A stretch of DNA of 37,231 bases from NCBI GenBank assembly GCA_021787935.1, contig JAJYLC010000014.1, positions 1-37,231 on the forward strand, given 5' to 3'. Both the position numbers and the translations under genes were made by a program. This stretch comes from Chloroflexota bacterium (GTDB lineage Bacteria; Chloroflexota; Dehalococcoidia; SZUA-161). This document shows positions 1 through 7,973 of the stretch, in pieces (within the stretch, counting starts at the first letter, position 1; each line of letters starts with the position of its first letter). Under the pieces are notes generated by a model. That model was given only the letters and a program-made list of their open reading frames with translations, was not told the origin of the DNA and ran no database searches.

Positions 1-1127
1 TCCTGAGCCCAGGGCGTGCTGCTCTCGGTGCCCAGGTCATCCAAAATGAGCAGCGGGCTGGTCTTCACCTTCTCAAAGACCTCGTCGTAAGTCACCTTGC
101 TTTCTGGGCTGAAGGTAGAGCGTAGGTGGTCGAGCAGGTCCGGCACCACAGCGAAGAATACAGACCTCCCGGCCCTCAATTGATGGTTTGCGATGGCTGC
201 TGCTAGGTGTGTCTTGCCGCAGCCGTGCACACCTAGGAACACTAGCCAGTCCTTGGGGGACTCGGCGAACTGGCGGGCTTCCCTTAAAGCCATTTGCAGG
301 CTCTCTCTCCCCTTCTCGTCGGCGTTCATCCCGCGGGCATCGAAAGCCTCGAAGGTCTTATCGGCCAGAAATTCCAGAGCCAGCCCGCCTATCTGCTGGA
401 AGAGCGGCACTTGAGGTCTCTCCAGCTCGCATTGCCGGGCTATGGCAGGGTTCTGTAATCTGGCCGCCAGCCTTTCGTCCAACTGCTTCAGGCTGTTGAC
501 AGTGACTACCGTGGGCAGCTCAGCGTTGAACCGGTGGTTCAATATCTGAAACAGCTTCTCCTCTGCCCAGGGTGTGCCGCTGTGCGTCCCTAAATCATCC
601 AGCACCAGAAGCGGGGCGTTGCGCACCCGCTCGAAGAGCTCATCGTAAGCAACGTCACTGTTGGGGCTGAATGTAGTGCGCAAGTGGTCGAGAAGGTCGG
701 GGACAATCACAAAGAATACAGGTTGTCCCTCTTTGAGGCGGTAGTTGGCTATAGCTGCGGCCAGGTGAGTTTTGCCGCAGCCGCTGGGGCCGCTCAAGAC
801 CAACCAGCCCTTAGGGTTTGCAGCGAAAGCCTTGGCTATCTGACAGCATTGAGCAAACCTCTCCTGATTCTGAGGGTCGCTGCTGCGGCCCCGGGGCAGC
901 AGATTGTCGAAGGTGAGGCGGGTCAAAGGCCCCAGGTTGCTGTAGCGCTCCAGGCGGGTGAGGCGTTCCTGCTCGAATTCCTTCGCCGTACACTGGCAGG
1001 GCACTACTTTGCCGAAGTCAGGGTGTCCGAAGGGTACGTCATGGCGCAGCCAGCCCTTCCCTTTGCAAAGAGGGCACTCATTCTCGCTGGTTTCTGCGAT
1101 ATCCTTATCTCTTGAGGAGGTGGCCAT
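1..1127 (-). CDS. DnaC/DnaI-like helicase-loader ATPase with two tandem AAA+ units (partial, runs off left edge)
   Basis: The minus-strand frame is open from an ATG at 1127 to the window edge (about 375 residues visible, no stop). The N-terminus has a four-Cys zinc knuckle (C18-x2-C21, C44-x-C46) like primosomal DnaC/DnaI proteins. Unit 1 has Walker A GPSGCGKT (about 113-120) and Walker B LLVLDDLG (about 173-180). Unit 2 repeats the whole arrangement with GVHGCGKT (about 299-306) and LLILDDLG. The units share about 59 of 85 residues from the strand before Walker A to beyond Walker B. Family members load the replicative helicase and normally have one AAA+ domain. The start overlaps the DnaD-like gene by 23 bp and no strong Shine-Dalgarno is seen. 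The operon context (dnaB, dnaD-like) supports a primosome role. An IstB-type transposition ATPase is less likely because no transposase is present. Confidence 0.85.
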   Translation of the reverse strand, partial: MATSSRDKDIAETSENECPLCKGKGWLRHDVPFGHPDFGKVVPCQCTAKEFEQERLTRLERYSNLGPLTRLTFDNLLPRGRSSDPQNQERFAQCCQIAKAFAANPKGWLVLSGPSGCGKTHLAAAIANYRLKEGQPVFFVIVPDLLDHLRTTFSPNSDVAYDELFERVRNAPLLVLDDLGTHSGTPWAEEKLFQILNHRFNAELPTVVTVNSLKQLDERLAARLQNPAIARQCELERPQVPLFQQIGGLALEFLADKTFEAFDARGMNADEKGRESLQMALREARQFAESPKDWLVFLGVHGCGKTHLAAAIANHQLRAGRSVFFAVVPDLLDHLRSTFSPESKVTYDEVFEKVKTSPLLILDDLGTESSTPWAQ

Positions 1128-1812
1128 ATCGTTTGCGGTACTCTTCGGGGCTGGAGTCCGCTTTAGAATATCGCCCAGGCTCTCCATCATGTTTACCCTC
1201 CGCTGCCCATCTCTCCAGGATGCGAGAGATGTACCGCCAGCTACGCTTGTTGAGGTCAACCGCTTCCTTAAAGGCATCTTGAATCCAGGAAGCGGGGTAT
1301 TGCTTCTCCGCGTCTTTCAGCTCCTCGGCAATGATAGGCGTAACCATGCCGATGTTCTTTTCATAAAGGGTGAAAATATTGGTCTGCTCCTGGCTCACCG
1401 GGCAAGGCTCTCCCTTGGCTAAATTACCCAATTTCAGCTCACCGCTATTTATCTTTTCCACAGCTTTTCGCCCTGCGTCATCATTGACGAAGTAAAGCTC
1501 ATGTTCTTCACCGTTGCGCTCCAGTTTCGAGCAGAGCAGTGTGCCGCGGCTCACCGCCCGGTTCAAGGCTTGACGCAAAACTTCAGGCGTGGAGCCCTGG
1601 CCTTCTATCCCTTTGATTAATACCGGGTCGACAGCTAGCTCGCTGTAGGTCACGAAGCGAGGATAGCCCCTCTTTTGATATAGAGCCCAGAAAATATGTA
1701 AGGTAACCTTTATCTCGGCAAGGTCGTCTATCTGGGGCAATACCTCACTGAAAAATATATTAGGTATGGGGGTAAATCTGGACTTAAGGGGGAAGCCGTC
1801 GAACACTTTCAT
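1105..1812 (-). CDS. DnaD/DnaB_2-domain primosome protein
   Basis: This 235-residue protein has a variable, probably winged-helix N-terminal half (residues 1-130). Its C-terminal helical segment (about 145-215) has the DnaD-domain signature: the YEKNIG stretch followed by a proline, then helices ending in a W-x-Y-I-x-x-I-L-x-x-W pattern (RSWRYISRILERW). DnaD-family proteins bind DNA and act in primosome assembly before the helicase loader. Its start codon overlaps the dnaB stop (ATGA) and its end overlaps the loader gene by 23 bp, so translation is probably coupled. Family assignment rests on the C-terminal motif; the N-terminal half is divergent. Confidence 0.8.
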   Translation of the reverse strand: MKVFDGFPLKSRFTPIPNIFFSEVLPQIDDLAEIKVTLHIFWALYQKRGYPRFVTYSELAVDPVLIKGIEGQGSTPEVLRQALNRAVSRGTLLCSKLERNGEEHELYFVNDDAGRKAVEKINSGELKLGNLAKGEPCPVSQEQTNIFTLYEKNIGMVTPIIAEELKDAEKQYPASWIQDAFKEAVDLNKRSWRYISRILERWAAEGKHDGEPGRYSKADSSPEEYRKRYGHLLKR

Positions 1813-3209
1813 AGCAGGCTCGGCTTCTTGCTGTCGAATTTCTCCAGGTTCTCGAACCTGGCTATCCGGTCCCGGAAAAAGAGGTTTGCCCGGCCCTGGG
1901 GGCCGTTACGGTGCTTGGCGACTATGATTTCTGAGATGCCCTTGGGATAAGGCTGGTCGGGGAATCGCTTTTCCCATTCATCTTGTTTGTAGTATACGTC
2001 CTCGCGATAGATGAACAGCACCACGTCGGCGTCCTGCTCTATGGAACCGCTTTCTCTGAGGTCCGAGAGCATCGGGGTATGAGGAGTGCGCGTCTCCACG
2101 GCGCGGCTTAGCTGGGAGACGGCCAGTACCGGTACATCGAGCTCGCGGGCCAACTCTTTTACGGAATGTGAAATATCGCTCATCTCCTGCACCCGGTTGT
2201 CGGTGAATCTGCTGGAGCGCATCAGTTGCAGGTAATCCACTATGACGAGGTCGACCTTACTCTCGGTGTGGAGGCGGCGCGCCTTGCTGCGCATATCGGA
2301 GTCCCTGAGAAAAGGAGAATCATCTACGTAGATAGGCGCTTCGGAAAGGCGGCCCATAGCGTCTATAACATCCTCTCGCTGGCGCGGGTTCATCTGGTCA
2401 AGCCTCACGCTCTGGCTGTCAACTCCCGATTCGCTGGAGAGGAAGCGGTAAGCAAGCTCCATCTTGGACATCTCCAGGCTGAACAGTGCCACGTGGGCGC
2501 CGTGTTTCACCGCAGCGTGGTGGGCTATGTTCAGAGCCAGGCTGGTCTTGCCTACGCCCGGCCTGGCTGCCAGCACAATCATATCCGAGCGCTGCAGCCC
2601 GCCCAGGATTTTATCCAGGTCGGTAAAACCGGTAGGCACGTGGGGTAAGAAACCCTCCTGCTGCGGGCCCAGACTGCTCTCCTCGAAGTAGCGGTCGAGC
2701 ACTTTGCTGATATGGACGAAGCCGCGCTGGCTCTGGCCCTGTCTCAGATTGAACAGAATGCTCTCGGCCTTGCCCAGTGCCTCATCGACGTCTGGGGGCG
2801 CCTCGTATCCTATGGCGGCTATCCTGTTAGAAGCTGAGATCAGCTGTCTCATCATAGAGAGCCGGTGCACAATGTTGGCGTAGTACTCGGCATGAACCGA
2901 TGTGGGGACCTGGTAGACCAGATGGCTCAGGTAAGCGGCACCGCCGGTGGCCTCCAGCTTCTGCCGCCGCGCCAGCTCATCCGCCAAAGTGATCTGGTTT
3001 ATTGGCTCACGCCGCTCGTAAAGTGCAATGCAGCTTTCATAAGTCCAGCGGTTCTTCTCCCTATAGAAGTCCTCCAGCTTAAGCAAGGTAACTATTTTGA
3101 AAATTGCCTCAGGGTCTATGAGAAGCGAACCCAGCACTGCCTCTTCGGCATCGAGGTCATGAGGAGGCATTTTGATATTTGACTGGGTCTCACTGTTATC
3201 TGTAGGCAT
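1809..3209 (-). CDS. dnaB: Replicative DNA helicase DnaB
   Basis: The 466-residue length is typical of DnaB. The N-terminal helical domain (about 12-115) starts with the PHDLDAEEAVLGSLL segment. The RecA-like ATPase domain follows, with Walker A ARPGVGKTS, the FSLEMSK motif, the Walker B-like VIVDYLQLM and the LSQLSR motif, then KHRNGPQG near the C-terminus. This is the hexameric ring helicase that unwinds DNA at the fork. It lies 54 bp after rplI, an arrangement widely conserved in bacteria, and overlaps the downstream DnaD-like gene by 4 bp. No intein or truncation is seen. Confidence 0.97.
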   Translation of the reverse strand: MPTDNSETQSNIKMPPHDLDAEEAVLGSLLIDPEAIFKIVTLLKLEDFYREKNRWTYESCIALYERREPINQITLADELARRQKLEATGGAAYLSHLVYQVPTSVHAEYYANIVHRLSMMRQLISASNRIAAIGYEAPPDVDEALGKAESILFNLRQGQSQRGFVHISKVLDRYFEESSLGPQQEGFLPHVPTGFTDLDKILGGLQRSDMIVLAARPGVGKTSLALNIAHHAAVKHGAHVALFSLEMSKMELAYRFLSSESGVDSQSVRLDQMNPRQREDVIDAMGRLSEAPIYVDDSPFLRDSDMRSKARRLHTESKVDLVIVDYLQLMRSSRFTDNRVQEMSDISHSVKELARELDVPVLAVSQLSRAVETRTPHTPMLSDLRESGSIEQDADVVLFIYREDVYYKQDEWEKRFPDQPYPKGISEIIVAKHRNGPQGRANLFFRDRIARFENLEKFDSKKPSLL

Positions 3210-3263: not shown

Positions 3264-3788
3264 CTAAGCAGCTTCTTCCTTCTTTTCCTGCTTTTTCGCT
3301 GTCTTTTTCTCCTGTTTCTTCTCAGGCTTTATCTCTGGCTCTGCCTCTTGCTCCACAACTACATTCATGATAGCGGTCACGTCTTTGGTTAATTTGACGG
3401 ATACCTGATGGCTGCCCAGCTCACGGATTGGCTCTGCAAGCTCTATCTTGCGCTTGTCTATATCCCGCTTAGTGAGCTTCTTAATCTCTCTGGCTATATC
3501 CTGGCTGGTGACAGAGCCATAGAGTTTTTCCTTGGTCCCGGCGCGCATCTTCAGGACTACAGTGGTATCCTGAAGGACCTTGGCGAAGGCCTCGGCATCC
3601 TGCTCCAGTCTAGTTTCCTGGCGAGCTAGAGCCTGACGCTGCACTTCCAATCTCTGAAGCTCTGCGGGTGTGGCGATTGCTGCCAGTTTCCTGGGGAGAA
3701 GGAAATTCCTGAAGTAGCCATCGGCTACCTCTTTCACGCTGCCTGCCTTGGCCACATTAGGGACATCCTGAAGAAAGACTACTTTCAT
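3264..3788 (-). CDS. rplI: 50S ribosomal protein L9
   Basis: The 174-residue protein begins with the L9 N-terminal rRNA-binding pattern (MKVVFLQDVPNVAKAGSVKE, then GYFRNFLLPRKLA). A central helix and the C-terminal domain (KLYGSVTSQDIA, with GSHQVSVKL further on) follow. L9 is usually about 150 residues; here a Lys/Glu-rich tail of about 25 residues is added after position 148. The start is preceded by AGGAGG at good spacing. It is the first gene of the rplI-dnaB-dnaD-loader operon, and DnaA boxes lie 48-80 bp upstream. Confidence 0.97.
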   Translation of the reverse strand: MKVVFLQDVPNVAKAGSVKEVADGYFRNFLLPRKLAAIATPAELQRLEVQRQALARQETRLEQDAEAFAKVLQDTTVVLKMRAGTKEKLYGSVTSQDIAREIKKLTKRDIDKRKIELAEPIRELGSHQVSVKLTKDVTAIMNVVVEQEAEPEIKPEKKQEKKTAKKQEKKEEAA

Positions 3789-3835
3789 ATTGCCTCCTAT
3801 TCTACTCCTTGGTCAATCATTGCTGGTCAATATTG

Positions 3836-3867
3836 TTATCCACGAAGTTATCCATAAGTTATCCACA
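3836..3867 (+). promoter_or_regulatory. Cluster of three DnaA boxes upstream of the rplI-dnaB operon
   Basis: Three nonamers in the same orientation sit at 3836-3844 (TTATCCACG), 3848-3856 (TTATCCATA) and 3859-3867 (TTATCCACA, the exact consensus), about one helical turn apart (12 and 11 bp). The next 100 bp are AT-rich. The site could be a DnaA-controlled promoter for the primosome operon or part of a replication origin. The gene-strand pattern alone does not settle which. No other cluster of such boxes was noticed in the window. Confidence 0.7.
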
Positions 3868-4026
3868 AGGTATTTTTTTATGTTAATGCTCTTGCCAAAC
3901 CGTCCTTTTTTGCTAAGTTTTGGCACCTCTTTAAAAATGGATATGAAAAAACTTTCTGAAGCTAATCCTAGCACAAGTGTTCTATTATGTCAAGGGTAGC
4001 TCGATTTTCTCTCCCGTTCGCCCTGA

Positions 4027-4096
4027 CCCCTTCGGCTTTGCTCAGGACAGGCCTGTCGAAGGGCCGTTCATGGTTCGACAAGCTCACCACGAACGG
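4027..4096. repeat. Intergenic palindromic repeat (REP-like)
   Basis: Nested inverted repeats lie between purL and the DnaA-box region: CCTTCG/CGAAGG around the 12-bp palindrome GACAGGCCTGTC, then CCGTTC/GAACGG enclosing GGTTCGACAAGCTCACCA. Sequences of this TTCGACAAGCTC type are common dispersed intergenic repeats in environmental bacterial genomes (general knowledge). No second copy was found in this window. It may also form the transcript end of purL. The remaining gap (3868-4026) is AT-rich and holds an inverted repeat TGCCAAA (3893-3899) / TTTGGCA (3919-3925). Confidence 0.55.
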
Positions 4097-4136
4097 CGGC
4101 TTCGTTCTCTATAATTTTCGCTCTATATGAATGTTA

Positions 4137-7100
4137 TCATCCACGGTCGCACCACTCCCGGGCGTTCTGGAAAAGCTTCAGCCAGGGAGAAGCCCAGAGT
4201 TGGAAATCACCCACTTTGAATTTCCCGCTCTCCTTCCAGTCTTCGGGTATCCAGGGCCACTGCCAGAGTAAAAATGACCTTTCCGGATGCGGCATCATCG
4301 CCAGATGGCGCCCATCCGGCGAACAAAATGCGTTAATACCGAAAGGCGAGCTGTTGGGGTTGAAACGGTAGACCTCAGTAGGCTTCCCTCGGTCGTCAAC
4401 GTAAGCTACGGGTGTCAGTCCTTTCCTTCTCGCTTCAGAGAGGATTTCAGGGTCGGGACAGTGGAGATGTCCTTCGCCGTGGGCGGTCCAGATGCCCAGG
4501 ATCGAGCCCTCCATACCCTTCAGCATTATCGCGGGGCTCTCTGAGATTCTCACAGTTCCCCAGTGCGACTCGAATCTCCCTGAGATGTTCCTGAGGAACC
4601 GTGGCTGCTTTGTCTCGGGAATCCCCTGCCAGGGCACCACGCCGAGCAAAGCCATCAACTGGCAGCCATTGCAGATTCCCAAGGAGAAGGTATCCTGTCT
4701 ATTGAAGAAGCGCTGGAACATCTTTTGGAGGGTGGAATTCAATCTGATAGTGCCAGCCCAGCCTTTAGCTGCATCTAGAACGTCTGCATAGGCGAAGCCG
4801 CCCACGAAGACGATCCCCCTGAACCGGTCAAGAGTGATTTTCTTCTCCAGCAGATCGGTTATGGTAACGTCCCAGGGTTCGAACCCCGCCCAGAAGAAAG
4901 CCGAGGTCATCTCGCGGTCGCCGTTGCTGCCTTCTTCCCGGATGATGGCTACCTTGTGCTTGTTCTTCTGTTGCAGTGTTTTCAGTGGCGTTGCCTCAGG
5001 CTGAAAGGTCAAACTATATCTGAGGCCGGGACGATTGTGATGCCGCGCCTGTTCCCTGGCCATCGTGGGATTCATCTGCTCCTGCTCCAGTCGATCGCTG
5101 GTGGCTTCCCACCAGGAAAGCAGTTTGGGAGTGCTTACATCAAGTACCCGATTGTTACCTTGATTAATGACTACCTGACGCTCTTTGTCGGTGCTGCCCA
5201 GGATAATGAAAGGAACACCATGTTCTTTCAAAATAGCCTTGATTTTGTTCTCATTGTCTGGCAGGTATTCTAGAACCAATCCCAGTTCTTCGGAGAACAG
5301 GTAGGGGATGGCTTCTTTATCCTCAGGAAGCCGAATTGTTATCCCGCAGTTTCCCGCCATCGCCATCTCTGCCAGCGTGGTAATTAAACCACCGTCGCTG
5401 CAGTCGTGGCAGGCAAGGATTAGTTTATCGCCAATCATCTGTTGGACTGCTTCGAATGCTTCCTTCAGGAGCTTGTGATTCTCCACATCCGGAGCTTCGT
5501 CGCCAAGCTGACCCAGGGCTTGGGCTAGGGCTGAGCCGCCGAGACGGTTTTTACCTGCCGCCAGGTCGAGGTAAATCAGTCTGCTTTCTCCTGGCCTCTT
5601 GATGTCCGGCGTTACCTTCTTGGTGATGTCGGGCATGGTGGCGTAGCCGGAGATAACCAGCTCTCCCGGCGCTTTCACTGTTTCGGTGTCCACCTTGGCA
5701 GCCATAGTTATGCTGTCCTTGCCTCCATCGACAGCGATGCCGAGCTTTATCATGATACCCCTCATCGCTACAGCCGCATCGTAAAGCCTGGCTCCTTCGC
5801 CGGGCAGTTTGGCGGCCCACATCCAGTTAGCCGAGCACTTGATGTGGCTGAGGTCGCTGATACGGACAGAGGCCATGTTGGTTATCATCTCACCCACTGC
5901 CATGCGGGCTCCGGCCTTTTCGTCGATAAGCATTTTGATGGGCTGCTCGCCGATGGCGGTTGCTCCGCCGGTCATTCCGAAGTGACTCTGCGCCACTACC
6001 GCCACGTCGGCCACCGGAAGCTGAAGCGGCCCGCAGCACTGCTGCTGAGCGATCAGCCCGGTGACACTCCTGTCTACCTTGCGCACTAGGTAACCCTTCG
6101 ACCCCACGCAGGGCAGGCGAAATACCAGCCTCAGCGCTTCTTCAACAGTCAATCCTCCGGGCAGCCTCAGAGGTTTCAGCTTCTTGGGGACCCTCTCCAG
6201 GGTGAAGGGTTTCTGCGGCATCTCGCCCAGTATCTTATCGAGAGGGAGGTTGACCGGATTGGATTTGTCTTCGTTGTCATTGACTGCGATTTGTCCGTCT
6301 TCTGTAATTTCACCCAGCACTTCGCAGTTCACCTTTTCCCGCTGGCAGATTGCTATAAAACTATTTATTTTCTTTTGCTGTATCAAAAATGCACAGCGTT
6401 CCTGGTACTCGGCGCACCATATCTCCACAGGCGCCAGGGTGGCGTCGCCGAGTTTTATCTTTCGAATGTTAATAACACCTCCAGCCGGATTTATAAGCTC
6501 GGCCAGGACATTGCCGGGCCCCCCGGCGCCCTGGTCATGAGCAACCAGAAGCGGATTGTCCCTGCCCATTTCCACGCAGGTTCGAATCACCCGGTTGAGC
6601 TTGTTCTCCATCTCGGCGTCGCCGCGCTGCACCGCATTGAAATCAAGCTCGGCGATATTCTCGCCTTGAATCATGCTGGAAGCCGAGCCGCCGCCCATGC
6701 CTATTCTATAAGCCGGTCCCCCGACCTGCACAATCAGCATTCCCTTCTCCGGCTCCGCTTTTGTGATATGCCGAGCATCGATTTGGCCGATGCCGCCAGT
6801 GAACATAATAGGTTTTATCCAGCCGCGCCGTTCTCCATTAGACAGTACCTGCTCGAAGGTCCTGACGAAGCCCTGAATCAGCGGCTCGCCGAACTTATTG
6901 CCGTAATCTGAGGCCCCGTTGCTGGCTTCAATCAATATCTCAAGGGGCGAGGCTAGCTCAAAGGGATAGGCAAGGTTCTCTGGTTCGCCGGGAATGCGGT
7001 AATCGGGAATATTCAGGGCTGCCGTACAGTAAGCGGCTGTTCCTGCTATTACCAGAGAGCCTCTTCCTGTGGCGTGCCCATCGCGGATCCTGCCGCCGGT

Positions 7101-7973
7101 GCCCGTGGTCGCGCCCTGGAAAGGGTGAACGCCGCTGGGGTAATTATGGGTCTCGGCGGTGAAAAGGATGTGATAGGTAGGGTTCCTGGCCACAAACGGC
7201 GAGCATCTTCCGGGCTGCTTCGGTAATATTGTCCAGATAGGGTAACCCCGAATTGCGCTGGAGTTATCGCTGAAAGCTATGACGCTGTTGGAAGGATTTG
7301 CCTTGAGGGTTGATTTGACTATCTGGATAAGGGTTTCCGGGATCTTCTTGCCATCTATAGTCAGTTTGCCCTTGAAGAACCAGTGGCGCGAGTGCTCGCT
7401 GTTGTTGTTGCCCAGCATGAACAGTTCCACGTTGGTGGGATTTCGATGCAAATCTCTGGTAAAGAGGTTGAAATAGAAGTTGATGTCCCATTCGTCCATG
7501 CCGAGTCCCTTCTCGCGGTTGAACCTTTTTAACTCGGCGATTCCTTTCCCCATCAGCGGCACAGAGTAGGTTTTATCCGGGATAGCTCCGGTCTCGAATG
7601 TTTTAAGGGGCTCTTGATAAGGGCATTCGGTCATGCGGTCGCAGTTTTCGGCAAAGAATCGTTCTCTGTCGGTTTTCGCAGGGGGTAAATACCGCCGGGA
7701 ACATTCGAGCCTGATAACCTTTTGCAGACCGCAGGCATGGCAGATAGCCACCGCGTTGGTGGAGTAAGCGGTCTCGAAGTTCAGACGGGGGCCGATTTCG
7801 ATCGCATTCTTAATTGATGTAAGAAAAGATTTATCCCCGAAGTACTCTGGCTCGAAGGTTTCAGCAAGCAGCCATCTGAGTGTTTTCAATTCGTTGACAG
7901 TGAGCGGAGCCGAGGCCTCTACGTTGAAACAGTATTCAAAATCCTGCCTGACCTTCCTATAAAAATGCTTCAT
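4137..7973 (-). CDS. purL: Phosphoribosylformylglycinamidine synthase, single-chain (PurL with C-terminal glutaminase)
   Basis: The enzyme converts FGAR to FGAM with glutamine and ATP in purine synthesis. At 1278 residues it is the large single-chain form, not the split PurS/PurL/PurQ type. An N-terminal linker region is followed by the first synthetase half (THNYPSGVHPFQGATTGTGG; GGGSASSMI), the second half (GMTGGATAIGEQP; DGGKDSITMA; CHDCSDGGL) and a class I glutaminase at about 1000-1278. The glutaminase has the nucleophile Cys in GICNGCQ and the catalytic His-Pro-Glu in MMPHPERSF. The ATG is preceded by a GAGG element. It is monocistronic, with a repeat behind it and the yqeY terminator in front. 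Confidence 0.96.
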   Translation of the reverse strand: MKHFYRKVRQDFEYCFNVEASAPLTVNELKTLRWLLAETFEPEYFGDKSFLTSIKNAIEIGPRLNFETAYSTNAVAICHACGLQKVIRLECSRRYLPPAKTDRERFFAENCDRMTECPYQEPLKTFETGAIPDKTYSVPLMGKGIAELKRFNREKGLGMDEWDINFYFNLFTRDLHRNPTNVELFMLGNNNSEHSRHWFFKGKLTIDGKKIPETLIQIVKSTLKANPSNSVIAFSDNSSAIRGYPIWTILPKQPGRCSPFVARNPTYHILFTAETHNYPSGVHPFQGATTGTGGRIRDGHATGRGSLVIAGTAAYCTAALNIPDYRIPGEPENLAYPFELASPLEILIEASNGASDYGNKFGEPLIQGFVRTFEQVLSNGERRGWIKPIMFTGGIGQIDARHITKAEPEKGMLIVQVGGPAYRIGMGGGSASSMIQGENIAELDFNAVQRGDAEMENKLNRVIRTCVEMGRDNPLLVAHDQGAGGPGNVLAELINPAGGVINIRKIKLGDATLAPVEIWCAEYQERCAFLIQQKKINSFIAICQREKVNCEVLGEITEDGQIAVNDNEDKSNPVNLPLDKILGEMPQKPFTLERVPKKLKPLRLPGGLTVEEALRLVFRLPCVGSKGYLVRKVDRSVTGLIAQQQCCGPLQLPVADVAVVAQSHFGMTGGATAIGEQPIKMLIDEKAGARMAVGEMITNMASVRISDLSHIKCSANWMWAAKLPGEGARLYDAAVAMRGIMIKLGIAVDGGKDSITMAAKVDTETVKAPGELVISGYATMPDITKKVTPDIKRPGESRLIYLDLAAGKNRLGGSALAQALGQLGDEAPDVENHKLLKEAFEAVQQMIGDKLILACHDCSDGGLITTLAEMAMAGNCGITIRLPEDKEAIPYLFSEELGLVLEYLPDNENKIKAILKEHGVPFIILGSTDKERQVVINQGNNRVLDVSTPKLLSWWEATSDRLEQEQMNPTMAREQARHHNRPGLRYSLTFQPEATPLKTLQQKNKHKVAIIREEGSNGDREMTSAFFWAGFEPWDVTITDLLEKKITLDRFRGIVFVGGFAYADVLDAAKGWAGTIRLNSTLQKMFQRFFNRQDTFSLGICNGCQLMALLGVVPWQGIPETKQPRFLRNISGRFESHWGTVRISESPAIMLKGMEGSILGIWTAHGEGHLHCPDPEILSEARRKGLTPVAYVDDRGKPTEVYRFNPNSSPFGINAFCSPDGRHLAMMPHPERSFLLWQWPWIPEDWKESGKFKVGDFQLWASPWLKLFQNAREWCDRG

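Follow-up and report, generated by a model that had tools for sequence, protein, structure and literature searches.

An operon for the replicative helicase, a DnaD-like primosome protein and a helicase loader in a Dehalococcoidia genome is preceded by three phased DnaA boxes that end 5 bp upstream of a promoter-like pair of hexamers. We consider it likely that DnaA controls, in one direction or the other, the promoter of this rplI-dnaB-dnaD-loader operon. The site, located in the 37,231-nucleotide stretch of DNA that was analysed (the window), is probably a control switch tying helicase supply to the start of replication, and not the origin itself. The relevant features are listed below; "family" refers to the host family, which has nine genomes in our collection, eight of them with rplI and the ninth (G164) listed as 70% complete.

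1–1127, minus strand: helicase loader, AAA+ (IstB/DnaC type), truncated by the contig end (PF01695, in two stretches; start codon placed by eye)
1105–1812, minus strand: dnaD-like primosome protein (PF07261)
1809–3209, minus strand: dnaB, replicative helicase (PF03796, PF00772)
3264–3788, minus strand: rplI, ribosomal protein L9, first gene of the operon (PF03948, PF01281)
3793–3798, minus strand: Shine-Dalgarno sequence AGGAGG, abutting the -10; purine-rich in the other seven family genomes
3799–3804, minus strand: -10-like hexamer TAGAAT
3825–3830, minus strand: -35-like hexamer TTGACC
3836–3844, plus strand: proximal DnaA box P, TTATCCACG (CGTGGATAA in the sense of rplI), 5 bp before the -35
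3848–3856, plus strand: middle DnaA box M, TTATCCATA, 3 bp from P
3859–3867, plus strand: distal DnaA box D, a perfect TTATCCACA, 2 bp from M
3965–3993, minus strand: second promoter candidate, lying upstream of the boxes: TTGACA-N17-TAGGAT, the -10 preceded by TG
4137–7973, minus strand: purL, the upstream gene (open reading frame)

The boxes were found where the original prediction had placed them: they start at 3836, 3848 and 3859, all on the plus strand and at steps of 12 and 11 bp. With the start of rplI at 3788 on the minus strand they lie 48–79 bp upstream of the operon, and the order in the sense of rplI is TGTGGATAA-CT-TATGGATAA-CTT-CGTGGATAA-CAATA-TTGACC-N20-TAGAAT-AGGAGG-CAAT-ATG. 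Each box matches the DnaA consensus at 8–9 of 9 positions. When the whole window was simulated 300 times with an order-1 Markov model, neither a co-oriented triple within 40 bp (each box with at most one mismatch) nor even one box pair at steps of 10–13 bp arose (0/300 in both cases); single weak boxes (at most two mismatches) are in mild excess only, with 109 in the window and a mean of 84 and a maximum of 105 in 100 shuffles. Across the window's genome, TTATCC-N4..9-TTATCC has 13 matches (control 2), and only two of these begin with TTATCCAC, the window site on contig C44 and a site on contig C40. The same genome encodes dnaA (contig C19), with the C-terminal DNA-binding domain (PF08299, 3.2e-23).

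The surroundings of the boxes are less constant. AT-rich DNA does adjoin them, as had been noted (30–38% GC in 40-base steps over about 3841–3980, against 52% for the window), and by eye this flank is not conserved in the sister-genome comparison. Both arms of the reported TGCCAAA/TTTGGCA repeat are present in the window (3893–3899 and 3919–3925), but by eye the sister genome G175 lacks the repeat, and we claim no role for it. The upstream gene purL is co-directional with the rplI operon, both being on the minus strand, which corrects the original prediction. In the gap between purL and rplI, positions 4019–4097 look by eye like a repeat element whose inverted arms flank TTCGACAAGC, and locus L044 has, again by eye, something similar upstream of its rplI.

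The geometry of the site is conserved across the family. The other seven rplI proteins are 55–85% identical to that of the window, a distance at which unselected DNA is expected to be scrambled, and by eye the sequence between the conserved elements largely is. TTGAC and TAGAAT stand just before rplI in all eight family genomes with the gene, separated by 19 bp in seven of them and by 20 bp in the window, and all eight have box-like slots 5 bp and 17 bp upstream of the -35. When this register is imposed on the relatives' loci and its score compared with all positions of the same locus, the M slot has 6–8 of 9 matches and the P slot 5–8 of 9, P being weak in G079 (5 of 9) and G063 (6 of 9). The two-slot score ranks first among some 3,900–7,000 positions in seven of the eight loci and fourth in G079. 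The D slot holds 7–9 of 9 matches in six of the eight genomes, and the box is missing from it in G063 and G079.

Some caution applies to the promoter itself. The predicted -10 adjoins the Shine-Dalgarno sequence, and with transcription starting 7 nt further down the mRNA would have hardly any leader; this fits poorly with a conserved Shine-Dalgarno sequence, and our -10 assignment for rplI may be wrong. The second candidate promoter, at 3965–3993, is weak on its own (1 found, against a shuffle mean of 0.5) and is not visible by eye in G175. In the window genome, this promoter-like site could provide a DnaA-free supply of the operon.

Is the promoter spacing a property of the boxes or of the lineage? 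A composite pattern (box-N5-TTGAC, spacer 16–20, TANNNT) has 14 matches in the nine family genomes against 1 in the control, and 13 of the 14 have a 19-bp spacer, though 16–20 was permitted. Six matches are rplI promoters, the sites of G063 and G079 being too degenerate to match. The remainder precede a small CxxC protein of the window's genus (on C40 and on its G175 counterpart C18) or other small or unclear frames; one of the 14, G063:C39, is without a second box and is probably a chance match. The double box alone (one mismatch), a pattern derived from two of its own sites, rplI and C40, has 12 matches in the family (control 1), 11 of them at such a promoter. Generic TTGAC/TATAAT-like pairs, by comparison, peak at 17 bp (17- versus 19-bp spacers: 9 vs 4 in G164, 4 vs 0 in the window genome G000 and 14 vs 5 in G049), which ties the 19-bp spacer to the boxes. 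A tally over rplI/dnaB loci of the class, which includes the rplI sites themselves and some of these twice, gives 14 pairs at 17 bp and 13 at 19 bp. A spacer kept at 19 bp next to phased boxes suggests a promoter that depends on an activator.

The C40 site (G000:C40:6062-6117, L018) is the only other double box with such a promoter that we found in the window's genome. It precedes a 60-residue CxxC (zinc-ribbon-like) protein and is conserved, boxes included, in G175. Among the 14 of 26 loci for this protein that were inspected, boxes occur at the orthologues on C40 and C18 only and the other 12 are without them.

Other genes that carry the element encode small unrelated proteins, which would suit some other regulator of 11–12 bp direct repeats next to the -35, with the likeness to DnaA boxes a coincidence. 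Phased direct repeats about 11 bp apart and abutting the -35 are typical of OmpR/PhoB-type regulators, and the repeat geometry in the window fits that type. We nevertheless regard such a regulator as unlikely, given the match of the window repeats to the DnaA consensus, the presence of GTGGAAAA and GTGGACAA also among the family's boxes between dnaA and obgE (compared across the family and not matched genome by genome), and the recurrence of box arrays at dnaB in distant families, described below.

Beyond the family, the element is absent from most of the 102 Dehalococcoidia sampled from the 174 non-family genomes with rplI; in three loci left out for short upstream sequence (L046, L059, L064) there was no box with at most one mismatch. 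By the fixed-geometry score the element is clear upstream of rplI in 4/102 loci (scores 20.7–21.7), belonging to families f54, f60 and f70 (two loci) and to genomes G078, G174, and G152 and G185 of one genus, with the hexamers TTGAAC and CATGAT in the two f70 loci. The best opposite-strand score in the 102 loci is 16.3. A fifth locus, G130 (f60, 18.7), is partial, with a good P slot and a poor M slot. Three more same-strand loci scored 17.0–18.0, above the opposite-strand maximum; their slots are poor by eye and we count them as chance. Perfect same-strand boxes lie within 200 bp of rplI in 4/102 genomes, a number reached by 0/300 permuted motifs; with one mismatch allowed the count is 9/102 (opposite strand 4), which 2/300 permuted motifs reach. 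Within 600 bp upstream of rplI, boxes with at most one mismatch occur in 18/102 genomes against 9/102 for a reversed-motif control, and two or more boxes in 6 against 0. The strict composite pattern, on the other hand, matches outside the family about as often as its control does (15 against 14, in 191 genomes of the class), and by eye the element is not seen upstream of rplI in G049.

At greater distances the association is with dnaB. A double-box-plus-TTGAC pattern (at most two mismatches) had 18 matches in 400 Chloroflexota genomes and none in the control. We inspected 13 of the 16 matching loci outside the window (L222, L223 and L224 were left out), and in five of them, from three distant families (G252, G260 and G440; G274; G400), dnaB lies downstream, with the boxes about 190–520 bp upstream of the dnaB match. 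Four of these loci have 8–9 boxes each, and G400 has only three one-mismatch boxes upstream. Among the others, L209 is box-rich without dnaB and the remaining seven have one to a few boxes. As rplI was not found in these 3-kb loci, it is dnaB with which the boxes are associated. The G260 dnaB (L246:5964-7745) contains an intein (PF14890). Outside the phylum, all 5 boxes (at most one mismatch) of a 13.3-kb locus in Bifidobacterium bombi lie about 140–210 bp upstream of dnaB (L033:5792-5860). B. cuniculi has no cluster immediately upstream of dnaB, its 7-box cluster lying 4.7 kb away, and two planctomycete loci and one verrucomicrobial locus have 0–2 boxes and no cluster.

Several DnaA boxes next to AT-rich DNA, with replication genes adjacent, could also be an origin, as the original prediction had offered as one of two readings: the window site would then be oriC or a second origin at which DnaA loads the helicase. 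A cluster of boxes, here three, in AT-rich DNA is indeed what the site shares with an oriC; it differs in having no conserved unwinding region and in the presence of a separate origin candidate between dnaA and obgE. The gap between the upstream frame and rplI measures 75, 93, 109, 118, 119, 182, 208 and 348 bp in the eight family genomes, and the 75–119 bp in five of the eight leave no room for an unwinding region. These lengths are based on open frames of at least 80 codons; in G197 we used a 475-codon PurL-like frame, a shorter frame ending 10 nt upstream, and in G175 and G199 the nearest upstream frame is not PurL. The dnaA-obgE gap carries 1–4 boxes in 8/9 family genomes, that is in all eight in which it was readable, and the 500 nt after dnaA have 41–49% GC in the family; the dnaA search in G063 gave only a weak match, 27% identical.

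Strand skew in two single-contig relatives argues in the same direction. In G049, of the same class, the skew sampled in 20 stretches (400 kb of 1.36 Mb) switches at dnaA, being positive to its right and negative to its left, and rplI lies 394 kb away inside the positive half. In G260, the cumulative skew is lowest and flat at about 5.42–5.50 Mb, whereas the 8-box array upstream of dnaB (5.243 Mb) lies on falling skew, about 180–240 kb from the minimum and from a 32-box cluster. We therefore rejected the oriC reading on the short gaps, the dnaA-obgE boxes and these two skews, and give an origin at the window site hardly any probability. The window genome itself is in 169 contigs, and on C44 the skew at four-fold sites tracks the coding strand and does not switch at 3.8 kb, a comparison of little power. 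G164, although listed as a single contig, was excluded from origin mapping on account of 100–500 N per 20-kb stretch (20 sampled) and an incoherent sampled skew. The dnaA-obgE gap of G049 (L156:1560-1960) has no TTATCCACA-like boxes and contains two copies of TAGATAACTT, a sequence absent from the rest of the 400 kb that was sampled; this lineage may have an altered DnaA box. The G260 cluster (G260:C1:5480175-5481290, L258) packs 32 DnaA boxes into 1.1 kb, lies at the skew minimum, upstream of dnaG and a gene for a sigma-70 factor, and is probably where replication of that genome starts; we found no dnaA within the 433 kb read there.

A small number of strong boxes at a distance from the probable origin could instead titrate DnaA, in the manner of datA or DnaA-box clusters, and leave the adjacent gene unaffected. 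A fixed spacing to a promoter and the repeated choice of dnaB would be unexpected for such a site, and we consider titration very unlikely.

Published DnaA sites lend weight to control of the operon promoter. In vivo, E. coli DnaA is found mostly at paired boxes with a gap of 2 or 3 bp, as in 15 of 16 regions, and binding at purH drops strongly when the gap between its boxes is widened by one base pair (PMC11317965). The window site resembles those of nrdA, polA and purH, where co-oriented boxes 2 or 3 bp apart lie near the promoters of replication and nucleotide genes (PMC11317965), and differs from the E. coli double-box sites in having three boxes, in register with a promoter-like pair with a 19–20 bp spacer. 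Judged by its sequence, the site has what a double-box DnaA-controlled promoter would have: gaps of 2–3 bp, a constrained distance to the predicted promoter and a DnaA encoded in the genome. In the available sections of the E. coli report, dnaB is not among the 16 regions (PMC11317965), and the main text of a genome-wide study of DnaA binding in B. subtilis does not mention rplI, dnaC or dnaI (PMC4447404). M. tuberculosis DnaA, however, has five strongly enriched regions, one of them upstream of dnaB, and ChIP-seq in M. smegmatis recovered homologs of the same five; the M. tuberculosis DnaA variant I282T binds less at the dnaB promoter and dnaB is under-expressed (PMC7738170). The likeness to our proposal is a DnaA site upstream of dnaB; the bound region is Rv0057, in a different phylum (PMC7738170). 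In Caulobacter, dnaB has predicted upstream boxes and belongs to the DnaA regulon (Hottes 2005, via PMC8203912). Expression of dnaB there is DnaA-dependent, as we propose here, and the boxes are predicted ones (PMC8203912).

We propose that the three boxes form a DnaA operator for the rplI-dnaB-dnaD-loader promoter. DnaA would bind cooperatively along one face of the helix to boxes with gaps of 2–3 bp, the array stopping 5 bp upstream of the -35, and would contact RNA polymerase at a promoter that is weak alone owing to its 19–20 bp spacer. Transcription would be activated when active DnaA is plentiful, such that helicase, DnaD and loader rise with initiation capacity. DnaA is most likely the protein that binds, activation its most likely effect, and a coupling to initiation and the cell cycle would follow. 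For the switch named in the original prediction, coupling initiation to helicase supply, the conserved geometry at a promoter-like pair and the published mycobacterial binding upstream of dnaB are favourable, whereas DnaA binding at this site and the coupling are what we infer from them.

The direction of control is a separate matter. DnaA could repress the rplI promoter, as it does that of dnaA in E. coli, or block the predicted promoter at 3965–3993, downstream of which the boxes lie, and several promoters are known to be DnaA-repressed (PMC8203912). The boxes, however, are upstream of the -35 and -10 and not over them, a non-optimal 19-bp spacer is conserved, the mycobacterial mutant with reduced binding under-expresses dnaB (PMC7738170), and the upstream promoter is by eye not conserved in the sister genome. 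Repression therefore takes a minor part of the likelihood that we give to DnaA control as a whole and is rather improbable in itself; if DnaA does control the promoter, we lean with some firmness towards activation.

The link between DnaA and dnaB is already known, being published in mycobacteria and indicated in Caulobacter in the parts of those reports available (PMC7738170, PMC8203912). New here is the triple box in register with a predicted promoter with an over-long spacer, placed so that it could control helicase, DnaD and loader together. Among the papers listed in full-text literature searches, where subscription journals are thinly covered, none describes DnaA boxes at dnaB in Chloroflexota, judging by its title or the beginning of its abstract. 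If our reading is true, the initiator would determine how much helicase, partner DnaD and loader the cell has, through a single promoter with a geometry evident from its sequence; activation of transcription by DnaA would become testable on a compact natural series of promoters; and DnaA control of dnaB would be suggested to extend more widely than Caulobacter and mycobacteria. More speculatively, and with somewhat more doubt than confidence, Chloroflexota may have a dedicated class of DnaA-dependent promoters, in which two or three phased boxes stand 5 bp before the -35 and DnaA would have to remodel or bridge an over-long 19-bp spacer for transcription. Its targets would be the complete helicase-loading operon together with a handful of small proteins, among them the CxxC protein of the window's genus, as a mini-regulon sensing initiation-competent DnaA, with control of dnaB recurring in Actinobacteria, Alphaproteobacteria and Chloroflexota.

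The loader at the end of the operon has features of its own. In the window's copy two AAA+ ATPase domains stand in tandem and two GKTH motifs are present, and in six Dehalococcoidia relatives (L020, L021, L024, L026, L027 and L030) two GKTH motifs occur in a single frame of 442–456 codons. A second copy of the loader region is present in the window's genome (G000:C23:6655-8906, L003), with 88% DNA identity to the first 1200 bases of the window, and possibly represents a second strain in the bin.
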